Origin: Roseibium sp. HPY-6
GTDB lineage: Bacteria > Pseudomonadota > Alphaproteobacteria > Rhizobiales > Stappiaceae
Length of the DNA stretch: 64,000 nucleotides
Assembly (NCBI RefSeq): GCF_040530035.1
Contig: NZ_JBEWCD010000001.1
Span: 744,001 to 808,000 of the forward strand
Direction of reading: 5' to 3'
Of this stretch, positions 22,115 to 52,258 are shown one piece after another. The first letter of the stretch is position 1. Each line of letters starts with the position of its first letter. The position numbers were made by a program, and so were the translations under genes. The notes below the pieces were generated by a model. The model did not search any database. It worked only from the letters and a program-made list of their open reading frames with translations, and was not told where the DNA came from.

Positions 22115-22122
22115 GGTCACAA

Positions 22123-22148
22123 AAAACCCGCCGGAACCGGCGGGTTTT
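22123..22148. terminator. bidirectional terminator between MFS and ferredoxin genes
   Basis: AAAACCCGCCGG at 22123-22134 and its complement CCGGCGGGTTTT at 22137-22148 form a 10- to 12-bp stem with T4 on the plus strand and a T run from the A6 tract on the minus strand. It serves the two convergent genes. Confidence 0.85.
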
Positions 22149-22171
22149 GGATTTCGGAAAGAAGCGGCTGC

Positions 22172-22495
<324 letters not shown>

Positions 22496-22609
22496 TCACG
22501 TCCAAGCCTAGAATTGCGGGTTTCAGCTGAACCGACATAAAGCTTCCGTCGCAAAGGTCAAGGACTGCGACGTCTTCCAGGGAAATTCTGCCTCGAATGT
22601 GACAATCAG

Positions 22610-22972
22610 TCAGCCGGTCAGAAGATCTCTTATATATGTGTTGGCTTCGTCGACGGCGGCTTCAAGGCCTTCGGTGGCCGCGTCGGAAGTCTGCTTCATG
22701 CGTCCTTCCAGGTTTTCGCAGACATCCGCAACCCGCCCGGCTCCTATGGCACGGGCTGATCCTTTGAGCGTGTGAACGAGGTCAAGCCTGACCTTGCTGT
22801 CTGTTTCGTTGGAAAGCCGCTCGAGAGTCGAACAGGATTGCGATTTGAAAAGATGCAGAACCTGGACCTCGAGATCCCGGTTTCCGAGGGTGTTCGTTGC
22901 CAGTTGCACCAGGTCGATCGGCGCATCCGGACCCACGCGGCCGCTGACGCGGGCCATGGATGAAGGGGCCAT
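22610..22972 (-). CDS. Hpt (histidine phosphotransfer) domain protein
   Basis: A 120-residue protein with a single Hpt helical bundle. The phosphorylatable histidine is His67 in LVHTLKGSARAIGA, matching the HxLKGSA signature. No receiver or kinase domain is attached, so it would relay phosphate between separate proteins in the cytoplasm. The start at ATG 22972 has GGAG 7 nt upstream. The gene is not next to a kinase, so its partners are not known. Confidence 0.85.
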   Translation of the reverse strand: MAPSSMARVSGRVGPDAPIDLVQLATNTLGNRDLEVQVLHLFKSQSCSTLERLSNETDSKVRLDLVHTLKGSARAIGAGRVADVCENLEGRMKQTSDAATEGLEAAVDEANTYIRDLLTG

Positions 22973-23224
22973 GACGGCACTCCATACTACTTACAATTCA
23001 CCATCCGGCACCTCGCCGCTGGCTTCTACTGTCAAAAACTGTGAGCTGAAGACCCAAACGCCCGGTTAAACCGGCCTCGAAATCGGGCGATTCAGGCGAA
23101 TGTCCCCAAAAAACTGAATTTTTGGTTAACGGACGCAATTCAGGCGGAACAATCGCGTTTGAGAAAAACGTTGTCTTTCCGCCATTTCCGCTTATCGAAA
23201 TGTTTGCTGCAATGCGAAACAGCG

Positions 23225-23539
23225 TTAACTTTTTTTGCGAATTCGCCTTGCGGCAAGCGCATCAAATGCGGCAGGGGTCAGTTTGCAAACCAGCCAATCG
23301 GGCTTGATTGGGTTGGAAAACCAAGGCTCTGCCCACCCTGCGTCGATACAGGCGCGAATGGTGCGCGCCGGAATCTCGCGTCCGTTTTCATCGAACAAGG
23401 GAAGTTTGCCGCCGGGTTGTTCCAGCCCTTTTTTCAACCATCGCTTTTGTGCAGCCGTCAGGTTTCCAACCTTGAGGGTCGGCTGAACGTCACTGCCTGA
23501 ATTTGCTTCCGCTACGTTATTTTTCTTTGATTCCGGCAT
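23225..23539 (-). CDS. small conserved hypothetical protein
   Basis: A 104-residue protein. After a polar N-terminus of about 25 residues, the ordered part reads LTAAQKRWLKKGLEQPGGKLPLFDENGREIPARTIRACIDAGWAEPW and then LVCKLTPAAFDAL. The helix-strand pattern (AQKRWLKKGL..., RTIRACIDAGW, LTPAAFDAL) resembles a small winged-helix module, but I cannot assign a family. A G-rich ribosome site precedes the ATG. It is divergent from the GPR-like giant gene across 277 bp. Whether it is linked to that gene is unknown. Confidence 0.65.
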   Translation of the reverse strand: MPESKKNNVAEANSGSDVQPTLKVGNLTAAQKRWLKKGLEQPGGKLPLFDENGREIPARTIRACIDAGWAEPWFSNPIKPDWLVCKLTPAAFDALAARRIRKKS

Positions 23540-23816
23540 CGAAACCGCCCCCTAAGTGATTCATGCCATTGCTGTTTCTTGTTCGTTAGGAGAGATTGTG
23601 CCATTACAGTTGCTGATGCGGCAAGGTTGGGATGAGCACCGTCTGGAAAAACTGGACGGTCGGTCAGCGGCGGCCCTCCCAAACAACGATTTTGCGGTTG
23701 AGTTAAGTCCAGCGGTAACCGCGAGGTGACGCATCCAGTGAGTATGGAATACAATAGCTTGCGTTAGCAGGCGAGTTTACCGGCGTGTAATGAGTACGGA
23801 CGTGAGGCGATCCTAA

Positions 23817-26800
23817 ATGGCAAATCCGACAAAGGCTAAAGATCCGGCGGAAGCAGCACTTTCAGCAGTTGAAGAAGCGCTCAAGCTGGATTTTGGCGGT
23901 CCAGACGCAACTTTCAATTTTGATGAAAACACTTCAGCGGCCACCGTCAGCAAGGAAGCGGAAACAGAGCCGGAGACAAAGCCTCAGTCATCGCCCCAGG
24001 GTACGAGCTCAAAAGAAGAGCAGCGCTCCTCACGCAGACGTGGTCGCAGCAACCGTCCGCCGGCCGCAAATGACGATCGCCGCAATATCGGGAACCTGAT
24101 CTACGCACTGCAGCGCCGGCCGTCCTCAGCTCCGTTTTGGGGCGCTCTCGCGTTGAGCATCGTCTGGGCAGCGCTCGGCGGCAGCCTGTTCATGTCTGCC
24201 TTCTCCGACAAGGTGGTTTCTTTCAGCGATCCGCAAGCCCTGTTCTCGTCTCCCGAAATGCTTCTCGCCGCAGTCGGCATCCTGGTTCCGATCATCTTCT
24301 TCTTCATCATGGCCATGATGATCTGGCGCGCGCAGGAAATGCGTATCGTCGCCCGCGGCATGACCGAAGTGGCCCTGCGCCTTGCCGAACCGGAAGACAT
24401 GGCGAAGGAATCCATCCTGAGCGTCGGCCAGGCCATTCGGCGCGAGGTTGCCGCCATGGGGGACGGTATTGAACGCGCGATTGCCCGTGCAAGTGAGCTT
24501 GAGGTCCTCGTTCATAATGAGGTCTCGTCACTTGAACGGTCCTACAATGATAATGAACTGAAGATCCGCGCCCTGATCGAGGAGTTGGTCAGCCAGCGGG
24601 AATCCATCGTGATCAATGCCGAGCGCGTCCGGGAGACGATCGCAGGGGCGCACGAAAACTTTTCTTCCCAGCTTTCAAGCACTTCCGGCGAGCTTGGCGA
24701 AACAGTTGATCAGGCTTCCCAGCGTATGATCGATGCCGTCAACAACCGCGTCGCGGAACTGACTTCTACGGTCGATTCACGCATTGAATCTCTCGGGGCA
24801 ACCCTCAACGCGTCCGGCAACGAGCTGGTCGACAATCTGACAGTGCGCGCGGAAGATTACGTGTCCCGCCTGTCCCTGACCGGGCACGAACTGGTCGACA
24901 ATCTCTCCGAGACCGGCGCGACCATGTGGGAAACACTCTCCGCCCGTGGCAACCAGGTCAACGAGCGATTTGCCGAAACGGCAAACGCCTTCGTTGAAAC
25001 CCTCTCTGACCGGGGCACGGAGATCAACGAAACGCTGGCTTCTTCCAGCACGTCCGTTATTGCGACATTGAACAACAAGGCCGAGGAATTCCGCTCTACG
25101 CTGGAAAACACTGGTGTCACGGTCGGTGATGTCATTACCAAGCGCGGTGAGGAAATCAACGCCAACCTGTCGCTGACTTCCGGACGACTGATCGACACGA
25201 TCACGACGCGGACCGAGGAACTTGTCACCACGGTTGATACCAGGGTCACCAATCTGGACGAGTCTCTGGCGGCCACCGGTTCGCGCGTTGTTGAAAGTAT
25301 CTCTGAACGCGGCCAGGCGGTCACGGACACGATTTCCATTCGCGGCGCTGAAATCGTTGAAACGCTGTCAGGCCGGTCAACGGAAGTTGCCGAAATCCTG
25401 CGCGGTACCGGCGAAAGCATCGTTGTCGACCTGTCGCTTCGCGGCGGCGAAATTGCAGCCAAGCTCGACGAAACCGCCGGGTCTCTCACCCAGACCATCT
25501 CCGTCAGGGGTGGCGAACTCGCGGAGAAGCTGGACAGTATCTCCGAGCGCATCTACACCGCTATCTCAATCAACGGCACCGAGCTGGACGAGCGACTTAC
25601 GGCCCGCAGCAACGAGATGGCAACCATGCTCGAGCAGCAGACGGTCGGCTTCCGCGACACGCTGGAAAGCGTTTCCAGCCAGTTTGCGCACGGTCTTGGC
25701 CAGCAAACGGATGCCCTCACCTACAAGCTTGCCGAAACGGGCACACAGCTTGCCGAACTGATCGGCAGCCGCGGCGACCGGGTGGCCAACGACATCACTC
25801 AGGTCAGCGGCCAGATCGCCGAGACACTCGAAGTCCGCGGTGGCGCACTTCACGAGGGATTGACAACGCGCCTCTCCGAGCTGGAGACATTGGTCTCCGA
25901 TCGCGGCGGCCAGTTGATCGAAGCCTTCGGTACGAAAACTCTGCTGTTGTCTGAAGCAATGGACTCCCGTTTGTCCACGCTCGACACGACTTTCGCGACA
26001 CGCATTGACACCATGGACGCTTCCCTGGGCAACCGTATCGCAGAAGCGGATTCGGCAATCGGCGGCCATGCGGCACGGCTTGACGCGGCTATCGGCGGTC
26101 ATGCTGCAACACTGGATGCTTCCCTCACGAGCCATGCCGCCGCTATCGAGGCTTCGCTGAGCGACAGGCTTGGCGCGGTCGATGCCACGCTCGGCAGCCG
26201 CGCTGCTGAACTGGACAATTCGCTTGGAGGCCACGCTGCCAAGATCGAAGCTTCCCTTGGAGATCGCCTTGCGGCAATCGATGCCACGCTCGCTGAGCGC
26301 GCGGCTGCAATCGACGCGTCGATCGGTGATCGCGGCACGGCGCTTGACGCATCGCTTGGCCAACGCATCGCTTCGCTCGACACTGCACTTGGCGAGCGCA
26401 TCTCCGCGATGGACGCATCACTCGACCAGCGCTACGGCGCCATCGATGCGACGCTGAGCGATCGCATCAGTACCATGGACACCTCGCTCGAGCACCGGTT
26501 CACCTCCATGGATGCGACGCTTACCGACCGCATCAGCACGCTGGATGCGTCACTGGAACAGCGCTTTGCGTCAATGGACATGTCCCTCGGTGAAAAGATC
26601 TCGTTCATGGACACCACGCTGGAAAGCCGTTTCAACTCCATGGACACATCGCTCGGTGCACGGGTCACCACGATGGACGCAACCCTGGAAAACAGGGTGT
26701 CCTCGATGGACCGCTCCATGAGCGAACGTATTACGACCATGGATCAGGCGCTTGGCAGTCATATAAACACGCTAGATCTGACCCTTGACCAGCGCACAGC

Positions 26801-29800
26801 CTCCTTCGAAGCGACGTTGGAAACACGCACCCAGATCCTTGCGGACGCCATCGACAACCGGACCACCGGCATCAGCGACGCACTGGAAGAAAAGACGCGC
26901 AATATCACCGATGTTCTGGCAGACCGCTCCGATGCCATCACCCTGCAGTTGGGTCAACGCATTGAGAACGCCGGCAACAACCTCGCCGAAAGGGCGACGG
27001 AAATCGGACAGACACTCTCCGATCGCGTTGATGGTGCGGCCGCATCCATGGCCGAAAAGGCGGAACTCCTGTCTGCCTCGATGACAAGCGGTACGGATCG
27101 CATCGACGAGACGCTTGATGCGCGTGCCCGTCAGATTTCCGAGACCCTGATTTCCAGAACGAAGGAAATTGCCAAGGCGTTTGTCGAAGGTCAGGACGAA
27201 ATGACGAGCGCGCTCGACAACCGCTTGTCCGAAGCCGGCAACGTGCTCGGTAAGCAGAGCGAACAACTCACAGATTCGCTGTCGGAGCGCATTGCGGAGA
27301 TCAACGTGTCGCTCGGCGCCAAGGTGTTTGAGGTTGCTGAAACGCTCGACAGCCGCGCAACACAGCTCGAAACGCTCCTGAATGAGCGCCTTGAGAGCAT
27401 TTCCGGCACGCTCACGGGCGAAAGCGAGCGCGCACGTGATATTCTGACGACCGTGATTTCGGAAGCCGGAGCAACCCTGTCGACGGAAAGCACCCGTCTT
27501 CGCGACGTCGTGCAGGAAGCCGTCGCCGCTGCGGTTCAGTCTCTTTCCGATGAACGCACCAAGACCGTCGATATCGTGGACACCGCCCTTAACCAGGCAA
27601 CCGAGAAGCTGGCTGGTGAAGGCGATCGGATGCGGCAGATTGTTCTAGGTTCTGTCGGCGAAGCCCGCGGCGTCCTTGTCGGCGAAAGCCAGAAGGCAGC
27701 CGACACGGTCAGCAACGCCATGCACCAGGCAACAGGCGCGATGTCCGGCGAAAGCGGCAAGATCCGTGAGCTGGTCTTGTCCGCAGTCAGCGACGCAGCA
27801 CGGGCCATGGCCGCAGAAAGCGAGAAGGCACGCACGCTTTACGCCGGTACGCTTGCAGAGTTCACGGGCTCGCTTACGGGCGAAAGCGAAAAGATCCGTG
27901 GCGATCTTTCAGGGCTCATCGCCGAGATCTCCGGCAACCTGTCTGCCGAAAGCGAGCAGGCGCGCCTGACCCTCACGAGCACGCTGGAAGAAATTCGCGG
28001 ACAGATGTCGAGCGAAGCCGGCATGGTCCGCGCTCGCGTCAACAGCGCAGTTTCCGAAGCCGCGGAACTTCTGGTTGGCCGGGGCAATGATGTCGCCAAC
28101 GAACTGCTCGAAAAGGCAACGGCGCTCAATGCGGCCTTCGGTGAGCGCTCCGGCGAACTCGCCCGGATTGTCGGCACGGACGGCAACGACCTCATCAATG
28201 CCATTGAAGCGCGCGCCAACGATCTTACGGGCCGCCTCTCCGAGGTGCACGGGGCAATCCTCGATGCCATTACCGTCAAAGGGCGCGACGTCACCGAGAC
28301 CTTTGCCCACACGGGTCTCGATGCCACGCGGAACCTCGTCGAAGCCGGCGACCGGATTATCGCCAGCATCAGCGAGCGCAGCGATCAGGCCGCAAGCCTG
28401 CTCACAGACACCAAGCGTCGTCTTGAGGCCGATGTCACCGACATTCTCAACAAGGTTGAGGAATCCAACGCCAACCTTCAGGGAATTGTTTCGGCGGCTG
28501 GGGAAAATCTCAACGAAGTCGAAGGCAATCTCGCCCGCCGGGCCGGCGAGTTCCGGTCCGCGGTCGATCGCGCGGTCCAGGAAACCAACCAGACGACGTC
28601 GCTTATCGACGAGCAGGTCTCCAACCTGCGCGATGTCACACAGACCACGCTTGCGGATATTCAGAACCTCACAAATCGCTTCGGCGACCAGTCCGAGGAG
28701 CTGACCCGCGCCGCACGCCATCTGGAAGACACAAATGCCTCCGTCGCAGGACGCGTTTCCGACCGCCGCACGGCGATCGAAGAAGTCGCGGACACTCTCC
28801 TGGCGAAGACGGAAGCAGTCGACTCGCTGATGCGGTCCTTCACTCAGACCCTGTCGGACACACTGGAATCTGCTGACGACCGCGCACGCGAAGCTGCAAA
28901 CATGCTTGGCGCGGCGGCAGAAGCAGCATCCAAACAGGTTGCCGAACAGTTCGAATCCATGCGCATGACCGCTGGAATGGAAGGGCAGAAAGCCCGCGAC
29001 GCTATCCGTTCGGCCCAGGACGACATCATTTCCGAAATGACCCGCACCGTCAGCGACGCGTCGGATCGTTTCAACGATGCGGCCGCCCGGATGCGCGATG
29101 TTGCCCGCGAGGTTCATCGCGAACTCGAGGCAACCCGCAGCGAATTGAAACAGGGTGTTCTGAACTTGCCGGACGAAGCGGAGGAGTCCTCCGCTGCGCT
29201 GCGCAAAGTGGTCAACGAACAGATCCGCGCTCTGACGGAACTCTCGGAGATTGTTGCCAAACAATCCAATTCGCTCGACATCTCGCGTCCGCAGGCCCAG
29301 GCGGCTGCCTCCGCAGCCCCTGCGCCTCAGCCTGCTCCACAAGCGAGCTATGTGCCGTCGGAGCCCGCACCGCAGCAGGCGGCTCCTGCCGCCGACCCGC
29401 GCCCGACGCAACAACGCCCGGTGGAAACCCGCCGCCAGCAGCCGGCACAGCCTCAGGGCGGTAATCCTGCAGGCAAGGGCTGGGTCGCCGATCTTCTGCG
29501 CAGAGCGTCCCGCGACGATGACGCAAGCGTCGACACGAGCATGGCACGCACGCCGTTACAGACGGTTGAAAGCCTGAATTCGCTGTCCGTCGATATTGCC
29601 CGCGCGATCGATCACGAGACCTTCATTGATCTTTGGAACCGGTATCGGGACGGAGAGCGGAATGTATTCACCCGCCGTCTCTACACACTCCAGGGACAGC
29701 AGACCTTTGACGAAATCCGTCAGAAATACTCGCGCGATCCGGAGTTCCGCACGGCTGTTGAACGCTACGTGTCGGACTTTGAACAGCTGCTGGCACAGGT

Positions 29801-29903
29801 GTCCAGAAACGATCGCGACAATATGCTGGGCCAGACATACCTGACATCCGATACCGGCAAGGTTTACACCATGCTCGCTCACGCCAGCGGGCGGCTCGAC
29901 TAA
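23817..29903 (+). CDS. gpr: GPR/RgsE-like giant polar-growth membrane protein
   Basis: A 2028-residue protein. Residues 1-95 are charged and low-complexity; two TM helices follow at about 107-130 (FWGALALSIVWAALGGSLFMS) and 149-172 (LLAAVGILVPIIFFFIMAMM). Residues about 175-285 are helical. From 286 to at least about 1540 the chain is an unbroken ladder of 11-residue repeats (see the repeat entry). A Pro/Ala/Gln-rich linker spans about 1825-1885, and a folded C-terminal domain ends the protein (WVADLLRRASRDDD...FIDLWNRYRDGERNVFTRRLY). Size, N-terminal TM anchor and apolipoprotein-like repeats match the growth pole ring protein of Agrobacterium (GPR) and its Sinorhizobium counterpart RgsE, needed for polar cell-wall growth. 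Assignment rests on architecture. GAGG lies 9 nt before the ATG. A strong terminator follows. Confidence 0.8.
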   Translation: MANPTKAKDPAEAALSAVEEALKLDFGGPDATFNFDENTSAATVSKEAETEPETKPQSSPQGTSSKEEQRSSRRRGRSNRPPAANDDRRNIGNLIYALQRRPSSAPFWGALALSIVWAALGGSLFMSAFSDKVVSFSDPQALFSSPEMLLAAVGILVPIIFFFIMAMMIWRAQEMRIVARGMTEVALRLAEPEDMAKESILSVGQAIRREVAAMGDGIERAIARASELEVLVHNEVSSLERSYNDNELKIRALIEELVSQRESIVINAERVRETIAGAHENFSSQLSSTSGELGETVDQASQRMIDAVNNRVAELTSTVDSRIESLGATLNASGNELVDNLTVRAEDYVSRLSLTGHELVDNLSETGATMWETLSARGNQVNERFAETANAFVETLSDRGTEINETLASSSTSVIATLNNKAEEFRSTLENTGVTVGDVITKRGEEINANLSLTSGRLIDTITTRTEELVTTVDTRVTNLDESLAATGSRVVESISERGQAVTDTISIRGAEIVETLSGRSTEVAEILRGTGESIVVDLSLRGGEIAAKLDETAGSLTQTISVRGGELAEKLDSISERIYTAISINGTELDERLTARSNEMATMLEQQTVGFRDTLESVSSQFAHGLGQQTDALTYKLAETGTQLAELIGSRGDRVANDITQVSGQIAETLEVRGGALHEGLTTRLSELETLVSDRGGQLIEAFGTKTLLLSEAMDSRLSTLDTTFATRIDTMDASLGNRIAEADSAIGGHAARLDAAIGGHAATLDASLTSHAAAIEASLSDRLGAVDATLGSRAAELDNSLGGHAAKIEASLGDRLAAIDATLAERAAAIDASIGDRGTALDASLGQRIASLDTALGERISAMDASLDQRYGAIDATLSDRISTMDTSLEHRFTSMDATLTDRISTLDASLEQRFASMDMSLGEKISFMDTTLESRFNSMDTSLGARVTTMDATLENRVSSMDRSMSERITTMDQALGSHINTLDLTLDQRTASFEATLETRTQILADAIDNRTTGISDALEEKTRNITDVLADRSDAITLQLGQRIENAGNNLAERATEIGQTLSDRVDGAAASMAEKAELLSASMTSGTDRIDETLDARARQISETLISRTKEIAKAFVEGQDEMTSALDNRLSEAGNVLGKQSEQLTDSLSERIAEINVSLGAKVFEVAETLDSRATQLETLLNERLESISGTLTGESERARDILTTVISEAGATLSTESTRLRDVVQEAVAAAVQSLSDERTKTVDIVDTALNQATEKLAGEGDRMRQIVLGSVGEARGVLVGESQKAADTVSNAMHQATGAMSGESGKIRELVLSAVSDAARAMAAESEKARTLYAGTLAEFTGSLTGESEKIRGDLSGLIAEISGNLSAESEQARLTLTSTLEEIRGQMSSEAGMVRARVNSAVSEAAELLVGRGNDVANELLEKATALNAAFGERSGELARIVGTDGNDLINAIEARANDLTGRLSEVHGAILDAITVKGRDVTETFAHTGLDATRNLVEAGDRIIASISERSDQAASLLTDTKRRLEADVTDILNKVEESNANLQGIVSAAGENLNEVEGNLARRAGEFRSAVDRAVQETNQTTSLIDEQVSNLRDVTQTTLADIQNLTNRFGDQSEELTRAARHLEDTNASVAGRVSDRRTAIEEVADTLLAKTEAVDSLMRSFTQTLSDTLESADDRAREAANMLGAAAEAASKQVAEQFESMRMTAGMEGQKARDAIRSAQDDIISEMTRTVSDASDRFNDAAARMRDVAREVHRELEATRSELKQGVLNLPDEAEESSAALRKVVNEQIRALTELSEIVAKQSNSLDISRPQAQAAASAAPAPQPAPQASYVPSEPAPQQAAPAADPRPTQQRPVETRRQQPAQPQGGNPAGKGWVADLLRRASRDDDASVDTSMARTPLQTVESLNSLSVDIARAIDHETFIDLWNRYRDGERNVFTRRLYTLQGQQTFDEIRQKYSRDPEFRTAVERYVSDFEQLLAQVSRNDRDNMLGQTYLTSDTGKVYTMLAHASGRLD
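24672..28433 (+). repeat. uninterrupted 33-bp (11-residue) coding repeat, 114 units
   Basis: Each unit begins with an aliphatic residue (L/I/V/M) and has a second hydrophobic position seven residues on, as in LSDRISTMDTS and LTDRISTLDAS. Register is exact: the leading aliphatic codons at 24672, 25299, 26025 and 28401 are 19, 22 and 72 whole units apart. Three consensus zones follow in order: LSxRGxEIxET types, then LxxRxxxMDAS types (most regular about 26025-26800), then 22-residue pairs such as LTGESEKIRGD with LSGLIAEISGN. Hendecads predict right-handed or nearly straight helical bundles. Confidence 0.9.
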
Positions 29904-30086: not shown

Positions 30087-30617
30087 TCAGCTCTTGGGGG
30101 CTTGCCCTTCGGCCAGGTTATCGCGGATGCGCTGCGCAATTGCCAGAAATCCGTATATGTCGTCTTCGGTGAGGCCTTTCAGCATTTTGCGCTCGACCGC
30201 CAACAACTTGGGCCCAAGATCGGCATAAACCGTCCGGCCTTTTCCTGACAATTGCAGAAGATAACTCCTGCCGTCTTCAGAATTTGTCTCGCGTATGAGG
30301 TAACCGCGCTCTTCCATGCGTTTCACCGCACGGCTGACAACAACCTTGTCCATACTGGACCGGGCCACGATTTCGCTTGCCTGAAGACCGGCCGACGCCG
30401 CGCCGAGGATCGCCATGGTCCGCCATTCCGCCGGCATCATCCCGTAGTCACGCTGATAGACTGCCGAAAGCGCGCTGGTGACATCGGAATAAAAAACGCG
30501 CACGAGGTAGGGAAAGAACCTTTCGAGCACGAAGCCGGAGCCCGTCTCGTCCGGCATTGAATGGCGTTCTGACGATTGCGCAGCTACTTCGGCACTCGAT
30601 TGTTCAGATTTGGTCAT
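30087..30617 (-). CDS. MarR-family transcriptional regulator
   Basis: A 176-residue regulator with a MarR winged helix: WRTMAILGAASAGLQASEIVARSSMDKVVVSRAVKRMEERGYLIRETNSEDGRSYLLQLSGKGR (described here by its segments AILG, ASEIVARSSMD, VSRAVKRME and SEDGRS) flanked by dimerisation helices. I use ATG 30617 (MTKSEQSS); GTG 30623 two codons upstream is an alternative. The N-terminal 25 residues are a polar extension. It is divergent from a TRAP transporter operon, and a palindrome of the MarR type lies inside that operon's promoter (30667-30684). It probably represses the transporter until a ligand, likely the transported acid or a metabolite, binds. Confidence 0.88.
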   Translation of the reverse strand: MTKSEQSSAEVAAQSSERHSMPDETGSGFVLERFFPYLVRVFYSDVTSALSAVYQRDYGMMPAEWRTMAILGAASAGLQASEIVARSSMDKVVVSRAVKRMEERGYLIRETNSEDGRSYLLQLSGKGRTVYADLGPKLLAVERKMLKGLTEDDIYGFLAIAQRIRDNLAEGQAPKS

Positions 30618-30660
30618 CGGCACTCAATCAGTTTCAGGAAATGGCACCCCGATTTTAAGA

Positions 30661-30688
30661 TTGACTTAGTTTCATATGCAACTATTTT
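30661..30688 (+). promoter_or_regulatory. sigma70-like promoter with embedded MarR-type palindrome
   Basis: TTGACT at 30661-30666 and TATTTT at 30683-30688 with 16 bp between them. The spacer and its edges form TAGTTTCATATGCAACTA (30667-30684), an 18-bp palindrome with a single mismatched pair. The geometry fits repression of the TRAP genes by the divergent MarR protein. Confidence 0.6.
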
Positions 30689-30761
30689 CGGGAAGCGCAA
30701 GCTGAATACCACTCTAATTGGTGAAAATCACCGGTCAGCCTGCAAACGGGAGGAGGAATCC

Positions 30762-31790
30762 GTGAAACAAATCAAGTGTCTTTCGATTCTGGCTGGCTTG
30801 ACGGCAACGGCCCTCGCCGGATTTGTCGCAACATCACAGGCGGATGAATTGGTTCTGTCGTCCTGGCTGCCCCCCAAACATCCGATTGTCACTGGCGTCA
30901 TGGAGCCCTGGGCTGACCAGGTTGCCAAGGCAACAGAAGGCCGTGTGACCGTACGGATCCTGCCCAAACCGCTTGGACCGCCTCCGGCACATTACGACCT
31001 CGCTGCCGACGGCGTCGCCGATATCACCTATGGACTGCACTCCTTCACGCGCGATGACCGTTTCCTGCGCTCGCGCATAGGCCAGTTCTCTTTCATCGCC
31101 GATACGGCGACCGACGGGTCAAAGGCTTACTGGGACGTTTACGCCGGAAAGCTGAACGCTCAGGACGAACATGAAGGCACCAAGCTGCTTGGTCTCTGGA
31201 TTCACGGCCCGGGCATGTTCCACAACAACCAGCGAAAGATTGACACACCGGAGGATTTCTCCGGTCTGAAAATCCGCACACCGGGCGGCTATATTGCCGA
31301 CCTGTCGCAGGATCTCGGTATCACGACACAATTCATGGGGCCGGGCGAAGTCTATGAGAAGCTGTCCCGCGGTGTGATCGACGGCGTCACTTTCCCGATG
31401 GAAGCGCTTCAGGCGTTCAAGCTGACCGACTACGTCAAGTCCTCCATGAAAGTGCCGGGCGGCATCTACAACACGTCCTGGTTCATGGTGATGAACGAAG
31501 ATGTCTGGGATGGACTTTCCGACGAGGACAAGGCGGCCATCGAAGAGGTATCCGGAGCTGCGCTTGCAGAACTTGCCGGCAACGTCTGGGATGGCGCCGA
31601 CACACGCGGCGCGGCTTACATCTCCGACAAGAACCTGGAAGTCTATGACGCACCTGCTCCCGTTCTCCAAAAGATCAGGGAACTGGCGGCAAAACACGAA
31701 GCCAGCTGGGCCGACGCGGTGTCAGAAACCGGCTTTGACGGTGCCGCCGCACTTTCCGAACTGCGTTCACAAACCGGCATCAGCAACTGA
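30762..31790 (+). CDS. TRAP transporter substrate-binding protein (DctP family)
   Basis: A 342-residue periplasmic binding protein. The start is GTG 30762 behind a GGAGGAGG ribosome site, giving a Sec signal peptide (SILAGLTATALAGFVATSQA, cleavage about residue 27). The DctP fold is visible in LVLSSWLPPKHPIVTGVMEPWADQVAKATEGRVTVRI, FSGLKIRTPGGYIADL (the arginine that binds the substrate carboxylate lies in LKIRTP) and MPMEALQAFKLTDYV. It binds an organic acid for the permease encoded by the next two genes. The stop overlaps the DctQ start. The substrate is not known. Confidence 0.92.
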   Translation: MKQIKCLSILAGLTATALAGFVATSQADELVLSSWLPPKHPIVTGVMEPWADQVAKATEGRVTVRILPKPLGPPPAHYDLAADGVADITYGLHSFTRDDRFLRSRIGQFSFIADTATDGSKAYWDVYAGKLNAQDEHEGTKLLGLWIHGPGMFHNNQRKIDTPEDFSGLKIRTPGGYIADLSQDLGITTQFMGPGEVYEKLSRGVIDGVTFPMEALQAFKLTDYVKSSMKVPGGIYNTSWFMVMNEDVWDGLSDEDKAAIEEVSGAALAELAGNVWDGADTRGAAYISDKNLEVYDAPAPVLQKIRELAAKHEASWADAVSETGFDGAAALSELRSQTGISN

Positions 31791-32302
31791 TGATGTCGTC
31801 AGAACCTGACACCTCCGCTTCGCGCCGGTTCCGGGGTATCCGGCGCGGAGCAACATTTCTACTCGGTTTTGCCTGTTTGCTTGTACTCGTGGCCATGATC
31901 GGCCTCACCTGCCTGGACGTTGTTGCGCGGTATCTCTTCAACAGCCCCGTAAACGGCGCCTACGAACTGACTCAGCTGCTCCTGGCATCGCTGATTTTCC
32001 TTGCCTTGCCGCTCACAACGGCGGCCGGCGAGCACATTGAAGTGGAACTGCTTGACGGCCTGAAGAGCAATATTCTGAAAGTTTTTGGCGCGGCCTGTGC
32101 CGGGATCGCGACTGTCGCTGTCTTTGCAGTTGTTTCGCTCGAACTCGCTGAGCATGCCGAAAAACTGCAGCGGCGCGAACAGGTTACAGATTCCCTTGAA
32201 ATCCCACTTTATCTGATCGGCTGGCTCGGGACGGCGTCTTTCACCGTATCTGCGATCGCAGCGATCTTCTGGACGCTCCGGCGTTTGCGCGAAAAGGCCT
32301 GA
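31790..32302 (+). CDS. TRAP transporter small permease (DctQ family)
   Basis: A 170-residue inner-membrane protein with four TM segments (about 21-43, 57-75, 91-115, 135-156), including LDVVARYLFNSPVNGAYELTQLLLASLIFLALPL, whose VARYLFNSPVNGAYEL motif is typical of DctQ. It couples the binding protein to the large permease. The start ATG 31790 overlaps the dctP stop by one base, and a second ATG follows directly at 31793. It is 3 nt from the next gene. Confidence 0.9.
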   Translation: MMSSEPDTSASRRFRGIRRGATFLLGFACLLVLVAMIGLTCLDVVARYLFNSPVNGAYELTQLLLASLIFLALPLTTAAGEHIEVELLDGLKSNILKVFGAACAGIATVAVFAVVSLELAEHAEKLQRREQVTDSLEIPLYLIGWLGTASFTVSAIAAIFWTLRRLREKA

Positions 32303-32305
32303 CAC

Positions 32306-33622: not shown

Positions 33623-34225
33623 CTAAACGTTCCGGAGCGTCCAGGCGGCCATTTCAGCGAAGACACGGTCGGCGGAGTTGTTCATGGCTTCAACGGCCTT
33701 GTCGACCGATGAACTTCCGGCCGGTGTTTCGGCGCGGAAGACTTTCGTCGCGACGGTCCGGCCATTCCGGTCGTTCACGACACGGGCGGAAATTTCGACA
33801 ACACCCCGGTTCCCCGAGACTTGAAGCTCGAATGCGCGTATTTCGGTCTGGAGCTGATAATCGATCAGAAGGCCGTCACCAGGGAGCCCGACGCCGCGCA
33901 ACCGCCCCGTATTCTGCAGCGTTTCCTGGAGCTTTATCTGCACGACATTCGGCAACGTGTCCGCCCAGGCGGATTTGGGATAGTAGCTGTAGATGGGCCC
34001 GTCATCGACGACGGCGATGTAGCTGGTATCGAGTGCCTTCAGTGCACGTGGCGGCGCGACAAGAACCTGTACGCGGCTTGAACGGCCTCTGAGGCCTTCA
34101 ACATCAGCCGAAGTCAGACTGTAGAAAGCCGAAGGCGCTGTACTGGAACACCCGGCAACCGCTGCCCCGAGGCCGAGAACGCTTAGAACGCCCCGGCGGG
34201 TCATGTTGGTCGTTGCCTTCGTCAT
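33623..34225 (-). CDS. PqiC-like auxiliary lipoprotein of the Mla-type transporter
   Basis: A 200-residue lipoprotein: a twin-arginine-looking n-region (TRRG), a hydrophobic stretch and the lipobox AAVAGC with lipidated Cys26. The mature part (VQVLVAPPRALKALDTSYIAVVDDGPIYSYYPKSAWADTLPNVVQIKL in pieces: APPRAL, YSYYPKSAWADTLP) matches the ABC-type transport auxiliary lipoprotein family (PqiC/YmbA-like). It is the last gene of the operon after the MCE-domain gene (28-nt gap) and probably anchors the lipid-transport bridge at the outer membrane. Confidence 0.85.
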   Translation of the reverse strand: MTKATTNMTRRGVLSVLGLGAAVAGCSSTAPSAFYSLTSADVEGLRGRSSRVQVLVAPPRALKALDTSYIAVVDDGPIYSYYPKSAWADTLPNVVQIKLQETLQNTGRLRGVGLPGDGLLIDYQLQTEIRAFELQVSGNRGVVEISARVVNDRNGRTVATKVFRAETPAGSSSVDKAVEAMNNSADRVFAEMAAWTLRNV

Positions 34226-34253
34226 GCGCCACTGCCCTTAATTCTTTTCTTTA

Positions 34254-36248
34254 TCATCGCCGCCGTCCGCCACTGAAGGTCGGAACATCCTCGCCCCCGA
34301 AAATCACCCGGTTCGGACTGCGTTCAAAACTTTCCGCAGCGCGCTGGATCGAGACCAGCGTCCGGTTGAGCTGTGCCAATGCCGCTGTGAAATCGGAAGA
34401 TCCTTGCGTTGCGAATTTCGACAAGCCGCCTGCGATTGAGTCCGCGCGGCTTTCAAAGGCAACGGCAACCTTGCGAATCGCTTCCGCGGCAAGCGTTGCC
34501 TCCTTGATCAGGCCTTCACCATCACCATCAACCATCGTCGAGACTTTCTCGACCAGGCTTTCAACGCGCACCGAAGTTGCATTCAAGGTCGCGGTCATCT
34601 GCTTGGCGTCGGTAATGATCTGATCGACATCCGGCGTACGCTTGGAGAGATCCGCCGTCATCTGCTGCACATTGTCCGCTGCTTGCTGCGCACTTTGCAG
34701 GATTGACGGAATGCCGTTTTCCTGGCTGGCAAGTTCCGAAGCGGTCGTTTCAACTGAGCCGACGATATTGGCCACCTTCTCCGGATCCACGGCTTTCAGA
34801 AGCGTATCGGCGGTTTGCAGTGTTTCCGCGAAACGTTCGGCGGCGGCCTGAACATCCGTGATCAATGCAGCAATCCGGTCGTCCTGACCGCGAACTGTTG
34901 CCGAAACCGCTTCAAAATTCTGAACCGTTGATTTGGTGGAAGCGATGATTTCGTTGATCTGGCTCTGCTGATTGTTGAAGTTGTCGATCACGCTGGCAAC
35001 GCCGTTGACGGCATTTTCAACCGTTTGGGGATCGACGCTCGCCAGCACTTCGTCCACACGCACAAGCGAGGCATTCATGCCAGTTGTGAAAGTGTTGACG
35101 GATTGGACCACTTCCTCGATCTGAAGCGGGTCAATCGCAGCGGCAATCTCAACACCGCGGCTCATGATCGCATCAACCTTCACAACGACGTCCCTGCCAC
35201 CTTCCAGGATCTCGGAGATGGCACCTTCCCGCTCCTGAACTACGGCAACGATCTTGTCGATATTCTGCATGGTCGTGGTGGTCGAGGAGATTAGCTTGCT
35301 GATGTCATCGCTGCGGGTTTCAAGCACGCCCCCAAGCGCTGCAGCACCGCCCATGACTTTCTCTACATCCTCGGGTTTGACCGCCTGAACGATCTTCTGA
35401 ACGTTGTCGAGGCCGTCATTGAGCTTTTTCGTGAAGGTTTCCAGTTCCTTGGCCGCGCTCTGCGCATCGCTCATCAACAGATCGATATCGTCGCTGGCTT
35501 TACCCAGGCTGCCGGAGAATTTCGTCAGGTCATCAACGATCGCCGTAACTTTGTCAGAGGGAACAGCTGCCAGTAGACGCTCGCCCTGATCAACGAGCTT
35601 TTCAAGCCGGCCTGAAAGGCTGGAGAAGGCCTGCGAAGCTTCTCCGATGTTTGCCATGAAGTCCTTGACGCCATCCGAGTTGGCCGCAAGGGCAGCCGAA
35701 AAGGTCTCGACGTTCTTGATCGTTTCGTTGATGACCGGTTTGTTCTCTACCAGAATGTCTTCGATCGTCTTCATGGTCGTGTCAGCGCGCTTGAGCACAT
35801 CGCGCGCGCCATCAACAATATCGTCGAAGAAGGACCGGTCCGCATAAAGCACCGGCACCTTGTCGCTGTTTTCCTTGAGCAAGAGCGGGGATGAAGACGT
35901 GCCACCCAACAAATCCACGTAAGCGACACCCGTCAGGCCGGTGAAGTTCAACGTCGCTTTGGTATCTTCGCGAAGTGGCGTGCTGGGCTTGATACCGACA
36001 GTTGCGACCACCTTGGTCGGGTCGTCAGGCAGAAAGTCCAGGGACTTCACATCTCCGACCTTGATCCCGTTGAACAAAACGCTGCCACCAACGGGAAGGC
36101 CCGTAACAGGACCGGGATAAATGATTTCGAGCGCAACATTTTGTCGGGATTCAGCCGTTGCGGCGAGCCAGAAAACGAAGCCGAACGCACCTATAAGGAC
36201 GGCCACCATGAAGGAGCCAATCAGAATATAACTCGCGCGCGTTTCCAT
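34254..36248 (-). CDS. MlaD-type MCE-domain protein with long helical tail
   Basis: A 664-residue membrane-anchored protein. TM at about 7-30 (YILIGSFMVAVLIGAFGFVFWLA), then one MCE domain at about 38-118 (ALEIIYPGPVTGLPVGGSVLFNG, LNFTGLTGVAYVDLLGG). The remaining 500 or so residues are helical and coiled-coil-like, with recurring motifs such as VNTFTTGMNASLVRVDEVLASVD and PEKVANIVGSVETTA. E. coli MlaD is about 180 residues, so the tail is large; long-tailed MCE proteins can build a hydrophobic channel across the periplasm. It belongs to the four-gene operon MlaE-MlaF-MlaD-lipoprotein, 10 nt after the ATPase gene. It binds and passes phospholipids between membranes. Confidence 0.9.
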   Translation of the reverse strand: METRASYILIGSFMVAVLIGAFGFVFWLAATAESRQNVALEIIYPGPVTGLPVGGSVLFNGIKVGDVKSLDFLPDDPTKVVATVGIKPSTPLREDTKATLNFTGLTGVAYVDLLGGTSSSPLLLKENSDKVPVLYADRSFFDDIVDGARDVLKRADTTMKTIEDILVENKPVINETIKNVETFSAALAANSDGVKDFMANIGEASQAFSSLSGRLEKLVDQGERLLAAVPSDKVTAIVDDLTKFSGSLGKASDDIDLLMSDAQSAAKELETFTKKLNDGLDNVQKIVQAVKPEDVEKVMGGAAALGGVLETRSDDISKLISSTTTTMQNIDKIVAVVQEREGAISEILEGGRDVVVKVDAIMSRGVEIAAAIDPLQIEEVVQSVNTFTTGMNASLVRVDEVLASVDPQTVENAVNGVASVIDNFNNQQSQINEIIASTKSTVQNFEAVSATVRGQDDRIAALITDVQAAAERFAETLQTADTLLKAVDPEKVANIVGSVETTASELASQENGIPSILQSAQQAADNVQQMTADLSKRTPDVDQIITDAKQMTATLNATSVRVESLVEKVSTMVDGDGEGLIKEATLAAEAIRKVAVAFESRADSIAGGLSKFATQGSSDFTAALAQLNRTLVSIQRAAESFERSPNRVIFGGEDVPTFSGGRRR

Positions 36249-36258
36249 TCAGTCCAAC

Positions 36259-37068
36259 CTATACCCGGCGCAATGCCCGCTGACCCCTGAAATACTCCTT
36301 TATCCAGGAATCATCATTTTTCATCATATCGTCCAGCGTCCCGATAGCCAGAACACGTTTATTCCCAAGAACCGCAATGCGATCGCAGATAGAATGCAGG
36401 CTATCGAGATCATGCGTGACCATGTAAACGGTCAATCCGAGGGTTGAACTCAAGTTTCCGATCAGCGTGTCAAACGCAGCCGCGCCAATCGGATCCAGTC
36501 CCGAGGTCGGCTCGTCCAGAAACACCAAATCGGGATCAAGTGCAAGCGCGCGCGCAAGGCTTGCGCGCTTGATCATGCCGCCGGAGAGCTCGGATGGAAG
36601 CTTGTCGGCAGCATCCTGCGGCAATCCCACGAGTTCGAGTTTGAGTGTCGCAAGCTCGTCCATGAGTTGGGGTGACAGCTTGAGATGCTCGCGCATCGGT
36701 ACCTGGATATTCTGTTTCACGGTCAGCGAGGAGAACAGAGCACCCTGTTGGAATAGAACACCCCATCGGCGTTCGATGGTTCTTCGCTCTTTTTCAGTCG
36801 CTGTGGAAAGATCGTGCCCGAAAACCGAAATCGTTCCCGCCCGTTTCGGCGTCAGTCCGAGTATGGCCCGCATCAGAACCGATTTGCCCATGCCGGAGCC
36901 GCCAACAAACCCGAGAACCTCGCCGCGGCGGACGTCGAGATCGAGATTCTGTAAAACGATCTTGTCGCCGAAGCCAACTGTTACTCCGCGCACGGACAAG
37001 ACAATTCCAGATTCTTCAGCAGTCTCCTCGCTTTGCATGGGAAACTCTTCGGATTCAATCACCGACAT
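36259..37068 (-). CDS. MlaF-type ABC transporter ATPase
   Basis: A 269-residue ATPase. Walker A is GGSGMGKSVLMRAILG (about residues 56-71), the ABC signature LSGGMIKRASLARALALDP, and Walker B LVFLDEPTSGLDPIG; the LSGGM and D-loop SGLDP variants are typical of the MlaF/Ttg2A family. A 27-residue N-terminal extension precedes the ABC domain. It powers lipid movement by the adjacent MlaE permease, 7 nt upstream in the operon. Direction of lipid flow is not shown by sequence. Confidence 0.93.
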   Translation of the reverse strand: MSVIESEEFPMQSEETAEESGIVLSVRGVTVGFGDKIVLQNLDLDVRRGEVLGFVGGSGMGKSVLMRAILGLTPKRAGTISVFGHDLSTATEKERRTIERRWGVLFQQGALFSSLTVKQNIQVPMREHLKLSPQLMDELATLKLELVGLPQDAADKLPSELSGGMIKRASLARALALDPDLVFLDEPTSGLDPIGAAAFDTLIGNLSSTLGLTVYMVTHDLDSLHSICDRIAVLGNKRVLAIGTLDDMMKNDDSWIKEYFRGQRALRRV

Positions 37069-37075
37069 GGCCCAG

Positions 37076-38224
37076 TTACACTCCTATGGCGGCGAAGAAC
37101 ATCGCGAAGAAACCGTCCACGACGATAACGAGGAAAATTGCCTTCACAACCGACATGGTGGTGTGACGACCGAGAGACTCTGAAGATCCACCCACTTTCA
37201 AGCCTTCAACGCACGCAATCAGGCCGACGATCAGCGCCATGAACGGTGCCTTGATAATCCCGACCAGCACAGTCTCCGGGGTTATTGCCACCTGAAGCTG
37301 TGAAAGAAAAGCTGCCGGTGGAATGTCCAGATAGGCCCAGGTCACCAGTCCCGCCCCAAACAGAGCGGCCATATCTGCAATGAAGGTGAGGATCGGCAAC
37401 GCGATCATAAGCGCCAGAATCCTTGGAAGAACCAGAACTTCCGTGACACTCAGCCCGATCACGTGGAGAGCGTCCACCTCTTCCTGCATCCGCATTGCGC
37501 CCAGTTCAGCCGTAAACGCCGAACCGGACCGCCCCGCAACCATGATCGCAGTAAGAATAACGCCAATTTCGCGCAACACGAGTACGCCTGCCAGGTCCAC
37601 CACGAAGATCTCAGCGCCGAACTGTTTGAGATAAAAGCCGCCCTGCTGGGAAATGATACCCCCGATCAGAAAGCTCATCAGAGCGACAATCGGAACTGCG
37701 CCGATGCAGCTCCGGTCGAACTGAACGGCTATTGAAATGCTACGCAGGCGTCCGGGCTTCAGGAGGACGGTCGACAGGACAAGACCAAGCGAACCCAGTA
37801 TGTGGAGCATCGCTTTGCCGTCCTCATAGGCATCAACCATCTGACGTCCGGTCGCTTCCAGGAAACCGACGATGGTGAACCCGCTGCGATCCGGCTTGTA
37901 GTTCGGTGGATGATGTCGGTCGATTTCGTCAAAAAGTTTTTGCCGGATGGGCGTTACACCCGTAAGCCCGACTTTGCGACCTTCAAACTCCAGTCGGCCC
38001 CGCGTCCTGTGGATAAGCCAGGCACCGCTCGTATCCAGATGCTCGATTTTGGAGACATCGATACAGGTCAAACGGTCCTTGGCCACCTTGAGCTTGTTGA
38101 TTCCCGTCTCAGCGTCTCCGATGGTGCTGACTGTCCAGTCACCCGAAAGCGCAAGATACTGATGATCCGGGCCATCCGCCTCCAGCTTCATCTCAGGTTC
38201 AATGTTTTTTTCCAAGAATGCCAT
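37076..38224 (-). CDS. MlaE-type permease with N-terminal STAS-like domain
   Basis: A 382-residue permease. Residues about 15-110 form a STAS-like domain (LALSGDWTVSTI, CIDVSKIEHLDTSGAWLI), a fusion common in alphaproteobacterial MlaE; in E. coli the STAS role is a separate protein, MlaB. The permease part from about residue 140 shows VALMSFLIGGIISQQGG, LREIGVILTAIMVAGRSGSAFTAELG and MRMQEEVDALHVIGL. I use ATG 38224 (MAFLEKNIE); ATG 38191 is an alternative. It is the first gene of the operon. Its promoter lies in the short divergent gap to the dgcN gene. Confidence 0.9.
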   Translation of the reverse strand: MAFLEKNIEPEMKLEADGPDHQYLALSGDWTVSTIGDAETGINKLKVAKDRLTCIDVSKIEHLDTSGAWLIHRTRGRLEFEGRKVGLTGVTPIRQKLFDEIDRHHPPNYKPDRSGFTIVGFLEATGRQMVDAYEDGKAMLHILGSLGLVLSTVLLKPGRLRSISIAVQFDRSCIGAVPIVALMSFLIGGIISQQGGFYLKQFGAEIFVVDLAGVLVLREIGVILTAIMVAGRSGSAFTAELGAMRMQEEVDALHVIGLSVTEVLVLPRILALMIALPILTFIADMAALFGAGLVTWAYLDIPPAAFLSQLQVAITPETVLVGIIKAPFMALIVGLIACVEGLKVGGSSESLGRHTTMSVVKAIFLVIVVDGFFAMFFAAIGV

Positions 38225-38316
38225 TCCGGATGGCTGCCCTCTTGCCGCTGGTTCGATATCCCTCGTATACCTGATGGAGAAGATTAACGTCCAGCAGCCA
38301 CTTGAAAGCTTTATCC

Positions 38317-39330
38317 ATGGAAATTGCCCGTCCTTATCTTTTGTTCCTCGGTGATGTCGCCGACGCACTTGCAGCGAAAACGGCGATCGGTATCGTCGAC
38401 TGGCGCAAAGACTGGTGTATAGGTCAGGTCAGACTGCCGGGCTGCGCCGCCGATACAGGCCTCGCCGACATGACTATTGGCGACGGCGCGGCTGCCGGCG
38501 CGAAAACAATGATCATCGGGGCGGTCAATGCCGGCGGACGTTTGCCGGATCACTGGATTACATCCGTTGTCGAGGCGCTTGATGCCGGTCTTGACGTTGC
38601 CTCCGGCCTTCACGTGCGCCTCGGCGATGTTCCCCAAATCCGTGAGGCGGCTGAACGCAACGGGCGCCAGTTGCACGATGTCCGTCACAACTCCATGACA
38701 TTTGCCACCGGAAAAGGCACCAAACGCTCCGGCAAACGGATCCTGGCCGTCGGAACGGACTGCTCCGTCGGGAAAAAATACACCGCGCTCGCAATGGATC
38801 GCGCCATGAACGAACGCGGCTACAACAGCACTTTCTGCGCGACAGGGCAGACCGGAGTGTTCATTTCGGGCCGCGGCGTTGCTCTGGACGCGGTCATTGC
38901 GGATTTCATATCGGGCGCTGCCGAATGGCTATCGCCTGAAACCGAGGAAAGTCACTGGCAAATCATTGAAGGTCAGGGGTCTCTGTTTCATCCCTCTTTT
39001 GCCGGCGTCACGCTCGGTCTCCTTCACGGCTCACAACCCGATGGCTTCATCGTGTGTCACGAGCCGACACGGACAAAAATGCGCGGGGTCGAAACGCCTC
39101 TACCGACCATCCAGCAGGTCATCGACACGACCATAGACTGCGGCCGGCTGACCAACCCGGATATCCGCTGCGTCGGTATCGCCGTCAACACGTCGGCGCT
39201 CGACAACGACGAAGCCCTGGCGTTTCTCGCCAAGGTTGGCGAGAAACACGGCCTTCCGGCGACCGATCCGGTCCGCTTTGGCATGGACGTGATCGTGGAC
39301 AAGGTTTCTGCCGAGTTCGGTGCGCCATGA
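38317..39330 (+). CDS. dgcN: DgcN-type DUF1611 protein (D-glutamate N-acetyltransferase)
   Basis: A 337-residue DUF1611 protein. It carries the P-loop GTDCSVGKKYTALAM (about residues 149-163) and the blocks ADMTIGDGAAAGAKTMIIGAVNAGG and LHVRLGDVP. The family includes DgcN, which acetylates D-glutamate with acetyl-CoA in the bacterial DgcN-DgcA pathway. The next gene is the matching DgcA-type enolase-superfamily enzyme, overlapping by 4 nt (ATGA), so the pathway assignment is well supported by context. I start at ATG 38317; a TTG at 38302 is less likely. Other DUF1611 members may have other roles, so the substrate is inferred. Confidence 0.85.
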   Translation: MEIARPYLLFLGDVADALAAKTAIGIVDWRKDWCIGQVRLPGCAADTGLADMTIGDGAAAGAKTMIIGAVNAGGRLPDHWITSVVEALDAGLDVASGLHVRLGDVPQIREAAERNGRQLHDVRHNSMTFATGKGTKRSGKRILAVGTDCSVGKKYTALAMDRAMNERGYNSTFCATGQTGVFISGRGVALDAVIADFISGAAEWLSPETEESHWQIIEGQGSLFHPSFAGVTLGLLHGSQPDGFIVCHEPTRTKMRGVETPLPTIQQVIDTTIDCGRLTNPDIRCVGIAVNTSALDNDEALAFLAKVGEKHGLPATDPVRFGMDVIVDKVSAEFGAP

Positions 39331-51948: not shown

Positions 51949-52024
51949 GCATCTCCTCCGGCAACGGAATTATTGTTTTCGGAGGGATGAAAGGAAGGCG
52001 CGAAGCCGAACGCCTCAACGTTTT

Positions 52025-52118
52025 CATCTCAACTCCCTCCGCCGGTATCAACCGGATCAGGTTCAAGGAGTTGGCCGTGTGCCTCTCAGCCCGATCAATC
52101 GTCGTCGGGCACCCCCAT
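52025..52118 (-). ncRNA. TPP riboswitch (THI element)
   Basis: On the minus strand the leader shows the conserved THI-box parts in order: GGGGGTGCC, GGGCTGAGAGG, then CTTGAACCTGATCCGG and TTGATACCGGCGGAGGGA. CUGAGA is the pyrimidine-sensing element and the later segment forms the pyrophosphate-sensing helix. It sits about 75 nt before thiM and should repress the thiM-thiD-TRAP operon, by sequestering the ribosome site or by termination, when TPP binds. Confidence 0.95.
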
Positions 52119-52258
52119 GAGATGCCAGCACTGCTAGCAAGCCAGCGTGTTGAATGCAAGTCCCGAGCAGGCCTGTGCCGCTTTTCAGCAATTGACTGCG
52201 GCGATGAGATAGGCGATGTCCTTGTCTGTTCTTATGCAAAAAAATTCCGGAGTGACGC

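Follow-up and report, generated by a model that had tools for sequence, protein, structure and literature searches.

The 64,000-nucleotide stretch analyzed here from the genome of the marine bacterium Roseibium sp. HPY-6 (contig NZ_JBEWCD010000001.1, positions 744,001 to 808,000; referred to as the window) encodes on its forward strand, at 23817..29903, a giant protein of 2028 amino acids. Its central part is an array of about 118 hendecads in a single register (residues 253-1550, 24573..28466), as supported by in-frame codons, periodicity and a register hidden Markov model (HMM). The protein is most likely an orthologue of GPR from Agrobacterium and RgsE from Sinorhizobium, and with a probability of roughly two in three it would be a membrane-anchored, acidic hendecad coiled-coil rod that serves as a scaffold at the growth pole.

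The Roseibium protein carries one uninterrupted hendecad array

The initial annotation had drawn attention to four codons at 24672, 25299, 26025 and 28401, which are indeed aliphatic and in frame (L286, I495, L737 and L1529) and lie 19, 22 and 72 repeat lengths of 33 bp apart. As four points picked by eye are weak evidence, the entire array was tested. When the sequence was arranged in 11-residue rows starting at residue 253, column 1 was occupied by I, L, V, M, F or Y in 117 of 117 rows. Column 8 held one of these residues in 98 rows (115 if Ala is counted) and column 5 in 39, with Gly, Ser or Ala in 63 of the remaining 78. Mean hydrophobicity was 1.64 in column 1, 1.38 in column 8 and 0.58 in column 5 and did not exceed 0.21 in any other column, which describes a narrow seam. 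The core positions (columns 5, 8 and 1) are thus spaced 3-4-4 with the 11/3 periodicity of hendecad coiled coils, and the a-d-h core pattern of hendecads is given in a section of PMC9858780 as hydrophobic residues with this same spacing. The protein has a net charge of -93, and the array carries -2.4 per 33 residues.

The residues I, L, V, M and F showed an autocorrelation of 0.57 at a lag of 11 and of 0.62 at a lag of 22, and even at a lag of 1100 it was 0.52. Spectral power reached 191.9 at 3.667 residues per turn versus 1.0 at 3.6 and 0.0 at 3.5, which rules out a heptad or 18/5 periodicity in the Roseibium protein. Over five harmonics of 11, the maximum among 200 shuffled sequences was 9.3, so that chance or a codon artefact is ruled out as well. 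The register HMM, in which any phase change was allowed, returned a single uninterrupted run from residue 261 to 1550; since its first profile was built from the rows of this same protein, the spectrum provides the independent test in this case. Tandem Repeats Finder detected a repeat only at 26409-26565 (66-bp period, 2.4 copies). The array is therefore nearly invisible to this program, indicating that the phase is held mainly at the protein level. Taken together, the single register and the period of 11, with no skip and no heptad or mixed pattern, are confirmed and stronger than first claimed, while the extent was corrected from 114 hendecads at 24672..28433 to a slightly longer array.

Close relatives change the array by whole hendecads

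Homologues were collected in a first set of 130 proteins, which after removal of open-ended or short ones and of the duplicate L001 comprised 122 including the Roseibium reference (120 distinct); L107 gave no tblastn match. The HMM decoder was re-estimated on this set, and first-set counts are not independent of it. Shifts and lengths are counted throughout as sites in sequences rather than independent events, many being shared by descent. A control within proteins was based on 43 distinct of 45 well-anchored proteins from Roseibium and its near kin, reference included, with landmarks absent in one or two proteins for four of the seven segments.

Among these 43 proteins, 18 array lengths were measured between landmarks; compared with the reference, the shortest array lacks 297 residues and the longest has 66 more (about 91 to 124 units). 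In 41 of the proteins the difference was a multiple of 11, and the two exceptions were both +3 modulo 11. For the N-terminal tail (first 82 residues), which had 12 lengths, the difference from the reference was no multiple of 11 in 41 of 43 proteins, and the same was true of 37 of 41 for the C-terminal linker (about residue 1800 to 1887), which had 14 lengths. The helix at residues 1572-1800 had one length in 43 of 43. The contrast is not absolute, as the membrane segments change in length in four of 42 and one of 42 and the C-terminal segment 1887-2028 in 16 of 41. Pairwise alignment of 44 homologues to the reference yielded 85 gaps, of which 83 were multiples of 11, single units included, and 62 were located at residues 700-999. 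This copy-number hot zone (residues ~700-1000, 25914..26816) contains the repeat detected by Tandem Repeats Finder.

The same behaviour was found more widely. Exactly one decoded run of more than 900 residues was obtained for 44 of the 122 first-set proteins (42 distinct). Array length relative to the reference ranged from -517 to +370 residues in 58 single-run proteins, an about twofold range of ~71 to 151 units; for the 55 well-anchored ones (reference included) it was -451 to +370. The difference was a multiple of 11 in 48 of the 55, and 3 or 7 modulo 11 in the other seven. Between the reference and L004, the nearest relative of the same length, 403 codons differ synonymously and 30 nonsynonymously; none of the latter lies in column 1 or 5 and one lies in column 8. 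The gene is under strong purifying selection. The invariant phase despite gain and loss of repeats suggests that a straight rod is more important than one of a given length.

Register shifts in other families are almost all heptad-sized

In other families the register does change. In the first set, 290 of 298 adjacent shifts were +7 or +3 modulo 11. A further 60 proteins of one large family were hand-picked, one per genus, from 149 matching genomes, among those with a long open frame; of the 440 shifts in them, 419 were +7 or +3. Six of these proteins were also in the first set; the remaining 54 served as held-out set and contained 391 shifts, with at least one in every protein. Here 371 shifts were +7 (248) or +3 (123), the others being nine of +4, six of +10 and five of other sizes (one in a masked stretch). 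Shifts over background gaps were spread (68 cases in the 60 proteins), as is expected where the stretch between two runs goes unread. At twelve inspected +7 sites seven residues stood between hendecads, and at five +3 sites three residues. In terms of phase, a shift of +7 equals one heptad and a shift of +3 equals two heptads replacing one hendecad, which would keep the hydrophobic seam. According to parts of PMC4786415, insertions of 3 or 4 residues, about one helical turn, are the best understood coiled-coil discontinuities.

Frequent register shifts in homologues had been named beforehand as the outcome that would speak against a protected register, and they were found. The claim of protection stands for close relatives, which keep the register while the repeat number changes, and is not supported as stated elsewhere. 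Since the shifts are nearly all +7 or +3, what the order as a whole retains is a hydrophobic seam without breaks and not a pure hendecad pattern. In a tree of 49 proteins based on the C-terminal 290 residues, pure and mixed arrays clustered, and the label 'pure' required seven changes; because of long branches in 11 rows, the tree is not taken to indicate an ancestral state. Short relatives of 837-1169 amino acids from other families (L094, L096, L098-L100, L102, L103 and L106) share the C-terminal domain and have few or no decoded hendecads.

In 30 shuffled proteins the decoder assigned no residue to a hendecad, and it noticed 29 of 29 artificial indels (40 proteins were drawn, those lacking a run of ~220 residues being skipped). 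A control with 150 artificial insertions of 1-10 residues returned the exact shift in 128 cases, no shift in 22 and a wrong shift in none. As 21 of the 22 missed insertions measured 7-10 residues, large insertions are under-counted, which possibly affects shifts of +8 to +10 and also those of +7.

Architecture of the protein

The N-terminal low-complexity tail (residues 1-104, 23817..24128), the first 82 residues of which vary freely in length across species, is followed by two predicted transmembrane helices (residues ~105-135 and 146-189, 24129..24383). Both are supported by Kyte-Doolittle windows centred at 116-120 and 150-164 and by AlphaFold2 (AF2) helices; the topology is predicted. A membrane-proximal helix (residues 190-252, 24384..24572), visible in near-invariant alignment columns and in the AF2 model, leads into the array. 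Behind the array lie a non-hendecad helix, also helical in AF2 (residues 1551-1819, 28467..29273) and of constant length over the measured residues 1572-1800, a disordered linker rich in Pro, Ala and Gln (residues 1820-1888, 29274..29480) with drifting length and a predicted local distance difference test score (pLDDT) below 50, and a conserved C-terminal domain region (residues 1889-2028, 29481..29900). The two modelled pieces, residues 83-482 and 1549-2028, consist of long helices together with the membrane helices and the linker, and the core of the C-terminal domain (about 1919-2028) was predicted as all-helical with pLDDT 80-94. A fold search with the C-terminal model against the PDB returned a best match of E 0.43, the long helices in the model weakening such a search.

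The protein most likely belongs to the GPR/RgsE family

A profile search assigned the protein to Pfam PF01442 (Apolipoprotein) with 274 bits against a cut-off of 90 (E 6.6e-82) in 11 stretches, and apolipoprotein A-IV was the only solved relative found by sequence at E <= 0.01 (E 4e-4). Identities as MCE, ZorA or PspA (NCBIfam) were rejected, their scores being far below the cut-offs and read as generic coiled-coil similarity. The C-terminal domain matched once per genome in 61 genomes, that of Roseibium among them, and was present in 25 of 25 sampled families. In the family to which genome G057 belongs, 149 of 151 genomes had one homologue each; this family is judged to be Rhizobiaceae, since the G057 protein groups with that of Shinella (L069).

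In excerpts of PMC8262873, GPR is described as a protein of 2115 amino acids with two predicted transmembrane domains and 1700 residues of continuous helix that forms a 200-nm polar ring; its loss leads to spherical cells, and C-terminal deletions block its function. Parts of PMC7327166 give RgsE as 2089 amino acids long, with homologues in all Rhizobiales families and with RgsA, RgsS and TolQ as interaction partners. In Brucella, RgsE is likewise found at the new pole, as stated in a passage of PMC9938171.

The Roseibium protein agrees with GPR (Atu1348) and RgsE (SMc00190) in a size of about 2000 residues (here 2028, against ~2100) at one copy per genome, two N-terminal transmembrane helices, many PF01442 stretches, a conserved C-terminus and an order-wide distribution. 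A long helix like that of GPR may be shared as well, the modelled pieces being largely helical apart from a low-confidence gap near residues 315-325. Orthology is the most likely relationship, judging by architecture, by distribution and by homology in the presumed Rhizobiaceae, set against the published descriptions of GPR and RgsE. In the Shinella-containing family the array is broken by heptad-sized shifts, whereas in Roseibium it is pure hendecad. The best 120 of 345 matches of a protein search measured 1307-1621 amino acids, and the named ones belonged to Xanthobacteraceae, Beijerinckiaceae or Rhizobiales; GPR by name was absent from these 120. Neither GPR nor RgsE appeared by name in the best 120 of 500 matches of a search with the Shinella C-terminal domain.

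A resemblance also exists to Scy and FilP of Streptomyces, which are polar cytoskeletal proteins, the rod of Scy consisting of more than 1000 residues almost wholly in hendecads (sections of PMC9858780). They carry a DivIVA-like N-terminus, and these sections mention no membrane anchor. No DivIVA family was among the Pfam matches of the Roseibium protein at E 0.001, and the likeness to Scy and FilP would be convergent.

The protein itself belongs to an already known family. In the literature searched, hendecad was not found together with Rhizobiales, with ZorA or with apolipoprotein and bacteria, and its combination with polar growth gave only PMC9858780. A prior description of an exact register with elastic copy number and heptad shifts was not found, the 2019 PNAS paper on GPR lying outside the search.

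A convergent lipid-transport operon adjoins the gene

Downstream of the scaffold gene and convergent to it, an Mpc-like operon was identified by Pfam on the reverse strand (33623..38368). It encodes a PqiC/MpcA-type ABC_trans_aux lipoprotein, an MlaD/MCE protein, an ATPase and an MlaE permease with a STAS domain. The permease gene stood beside the scaffold gene in 65 of 80 loci, on the opposite strand in all 65. Of the 15 loci without it, five end about 2 kb or less past the gene and two (L005 and L019) are cut inside the operon, judging by a match to the lipoprotein; the other eight include about 10 kb of downstream sequence with no MlaE. When genomes each representing another family were compared (own included), 11 of the 22 with an MlaE gene had it no more than 10 kb downstream and in convergent orientation. 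In nine of the other 11 the two genes are on different contigs, some of the assemblies being fragmented, and in two they are far apart. An MlaE match was absent in three of 25 genomes.

In Brucella, MpcEFDA is a Mla-Pqi chimeric lipid transporter conserved in many Hyphomicrobiales, as described in passages of PMC12436622, and it has the same four components: a permease with STAS domain, an ATPase, an MlaD-like protein with a long C-terminus and a PqiC-like lipoprotein. The MlaD-like protein has 331 amino acids in Brucella versus 664 here, and the operon is a neighbour of the scaffold gene, not a relative of it. RgsE is not mentioned in the Brucella Mpc paper (0 occurrences). A link between the operon and polar growth may exist.

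The genes of a tripartite ATP-independent periplasmic (TRAP) transporter (DctP/DctQ/DctM, 30576-33613, forward strand) are situated between the scaffold gene and the operon. DctP and DctM were each found in only nine of 80 loci, and the TRAP genes are possibly a lineage-specific insertion. Upstream, in an otherwise sparse 1.7-kb stretch (22115-23816), a small protein with an Hpt domain is encoded on the reverse strand (22610-22972), with homologues in 30 of 80 loci. Farther away, a carboxyl methyltransferase dependent on S-adenosylmethionine, of the Methyltransf_7 type (PF03492, E 7.5e-42), is encoded at 15405-16649 on the forward strand; this family is known mainly from plants. The only Rfam element found was a thiamine pyrophosphate riboswitch on the reverse strand (52016-52126, above the gathering score), away from the scaffold gene.

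Discussion

We propose that the two N-terminal transmembrane helices anchor the protein in the inner membrane and that its cytoplasmic part is one nearly continuous helix of ~1600 residues, mostly hendecad coiled coil. The rod would probably be a homodimer or small bundle, almost straight and up to ~195 nm long if unfolded, and the conserved helical domain at its far end may dock partners of the growth machinery. By analogy with the published work on GPR and RgsE, the rods could be clustered at the new pole and there hold wall synthesis, and perhaps lipid delivery, in one place. Gain or loss of whole hendecads, or insertion of a heptad, would be tolerated because the hydrophobic seam would still point to its partner; indels of other sizes would turn it out of line and be removed. 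Very little supercoiling is specified by hendecads, and the core position that faces the axis in low-order hendecad bundles is expected to be small (parts of PMC9858780). Column 5, with Gly, Ala or Ser in 63 of 117 rows, is one such small core position and may be the axis-facing one. The 3-4-4 spacing, the narrow seam, the small core column and the acidic charge favour a hendecad coiled coil over a helix lying on lipid.

Such a lipid-lying helix is the alternative that survives best, although we consider it unlikely. The array would then be a giant amphipathic 3-11 helix on a membrane or lipid, like those of perilipin 4, synuclein and apolipoproteins, and its exact 11-phase would keep one face on the lipid. 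The match to PF01442 and apolipoprotein A-IV agrees with this, as do the adjoining lipid transporter and the heptad-sized shifts, which would preserve a lipid face too. Helices on lipid surfaces have a broad hydrophobic face and a suitable charge, for which perilipin 4 is a yardstick, whereas the array is acidic and its Leu/Ile seam narrow; moreover, membrane anchoring is already supplied by the two transmembrane helices. Perilipin 4 has 11-residue repeats across 29 tandem 33-mers without deletions or insertions (excerpts of PMC5889406), and thus a lipid helix can hold its register as well. However, its repeats are weakly hydrophobic, carry +1 per 33-mer and bind lipid droplets, and according to the same excerpts a change to -1 abolished binding unless hydrophobicity was raised; the Roseibium array lies at -2.4. 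Its seam is presumably more hydrophobic per residue than that of perilipin 4, which could offset the effect of charge. Lipid sorting or sequestration was called intriguing by the GPR authors in a passage of PMC8262873.

A second possibility, that the register is kept merely by slippage of whole 33-bp repeats with no selection on phase, appears very improbable. It would account for the concentration of gaps in the hot zone, where the 66-bp period is detected, yet single-unit gaps also occur at residues 318 and 405, where Tandem Repeats Finder reports no array. Small indels are common in both tails, while the array departs from whole units in only two of the close relatives. The +7 and +3 shifts of other families, not being multiples of 11, are unlike whole-unit slippage, and the strong purifying selection likewise argues against it.

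That the number of units would set a fixed distance at the growth pole, as a molecular ruler, is the least credible reading: the ~190 nm that the initial annotation called ruler-scale if extended holds good for a helix that runs straight (1290 x 1.5 Å = 194 nm) and is close to the 200-nm diameter of the GPR ring in Agrobacterium (passages of PMC8262873), but the number of units varies within close relatives and about twofold beyond them, which disfavours a fixed ruler and leaves a species-specific one as a slight chance.

Several observations weigh against the proposed coiled-coil rod. The PF01442 match lies far above its cut-off. Gly occupies a core position in 25 of 117 rows, which is unusual for a stable coiled coil. 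The AF2 models cover the two pieces as single chains, and both have low predicted template modelling scores (0.31 for the C-terminal piece and 0.29 for the other). Within the array, mean confidence drops to 49-63 across residues ~303-332 with a non-helical gap at 315-325, in which the model possibly captures a hinge or reflects an alignment artefact. This gap corresponds to 24759-24791, and an 11-residue alignment gap in the relatives L126 and L128 is located nearby, at residue 318. Finally, GPR foci measure 50 nm (a section of PMC8262873), which does not match 195-nm rods that all stretch out fully from the pole; the rods may be bent, bundled or tangential, or the fluorescent tag may mark one end only. 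For an extended form of GPR a figure of 600 nm is given in the same source, which amounts to 3.5 Å per residue, while 1700 residues at 1.5 Å correspond to 255 nm.

A broader proposal is more tentative, and we would put it at somewhat short of even odds: that GPR/RgsE scaffolds are in general register-locked, length-elastic coiled-coil rods rather than apolipoprotein-like lipid sorters, changing across the order almost solely by whole hendecads or heptads, with the phase of the seam selected over more than 1000 residues, and that the rod organizes a growth pole to which the convergently encoded Mpc-type transporter also belongs, so that the supplies of wall and outer-membrane lipid would be coupled.

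GPR and RgsE have an important role in the polar growth and rod shape of Rhizobiales, and the published hypothesis on their function leans on apolipoprotein-like domains and lipids. If a hendecad register with almost only heptad-sized shifts holds, deletions of 11, 22 or 33 residues would be tolerated and deletions of 10, 12 or 20 would not. The coiled-coil deletions made in GPR are given in parts of PMC8262873 as 20 or 21 residues, while one passage states the range 413 to 434. A deletion of 20 or 21 residues would break the 11-phase and one of 413 to 434, which is 22 residues, would not; the register may therefore bear on how past GPR deletions are read, provided that GPR shares the hendecad phase. 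The conserved convergent lipid-transport operon, in turn, is a candidate partner for the scaffold.

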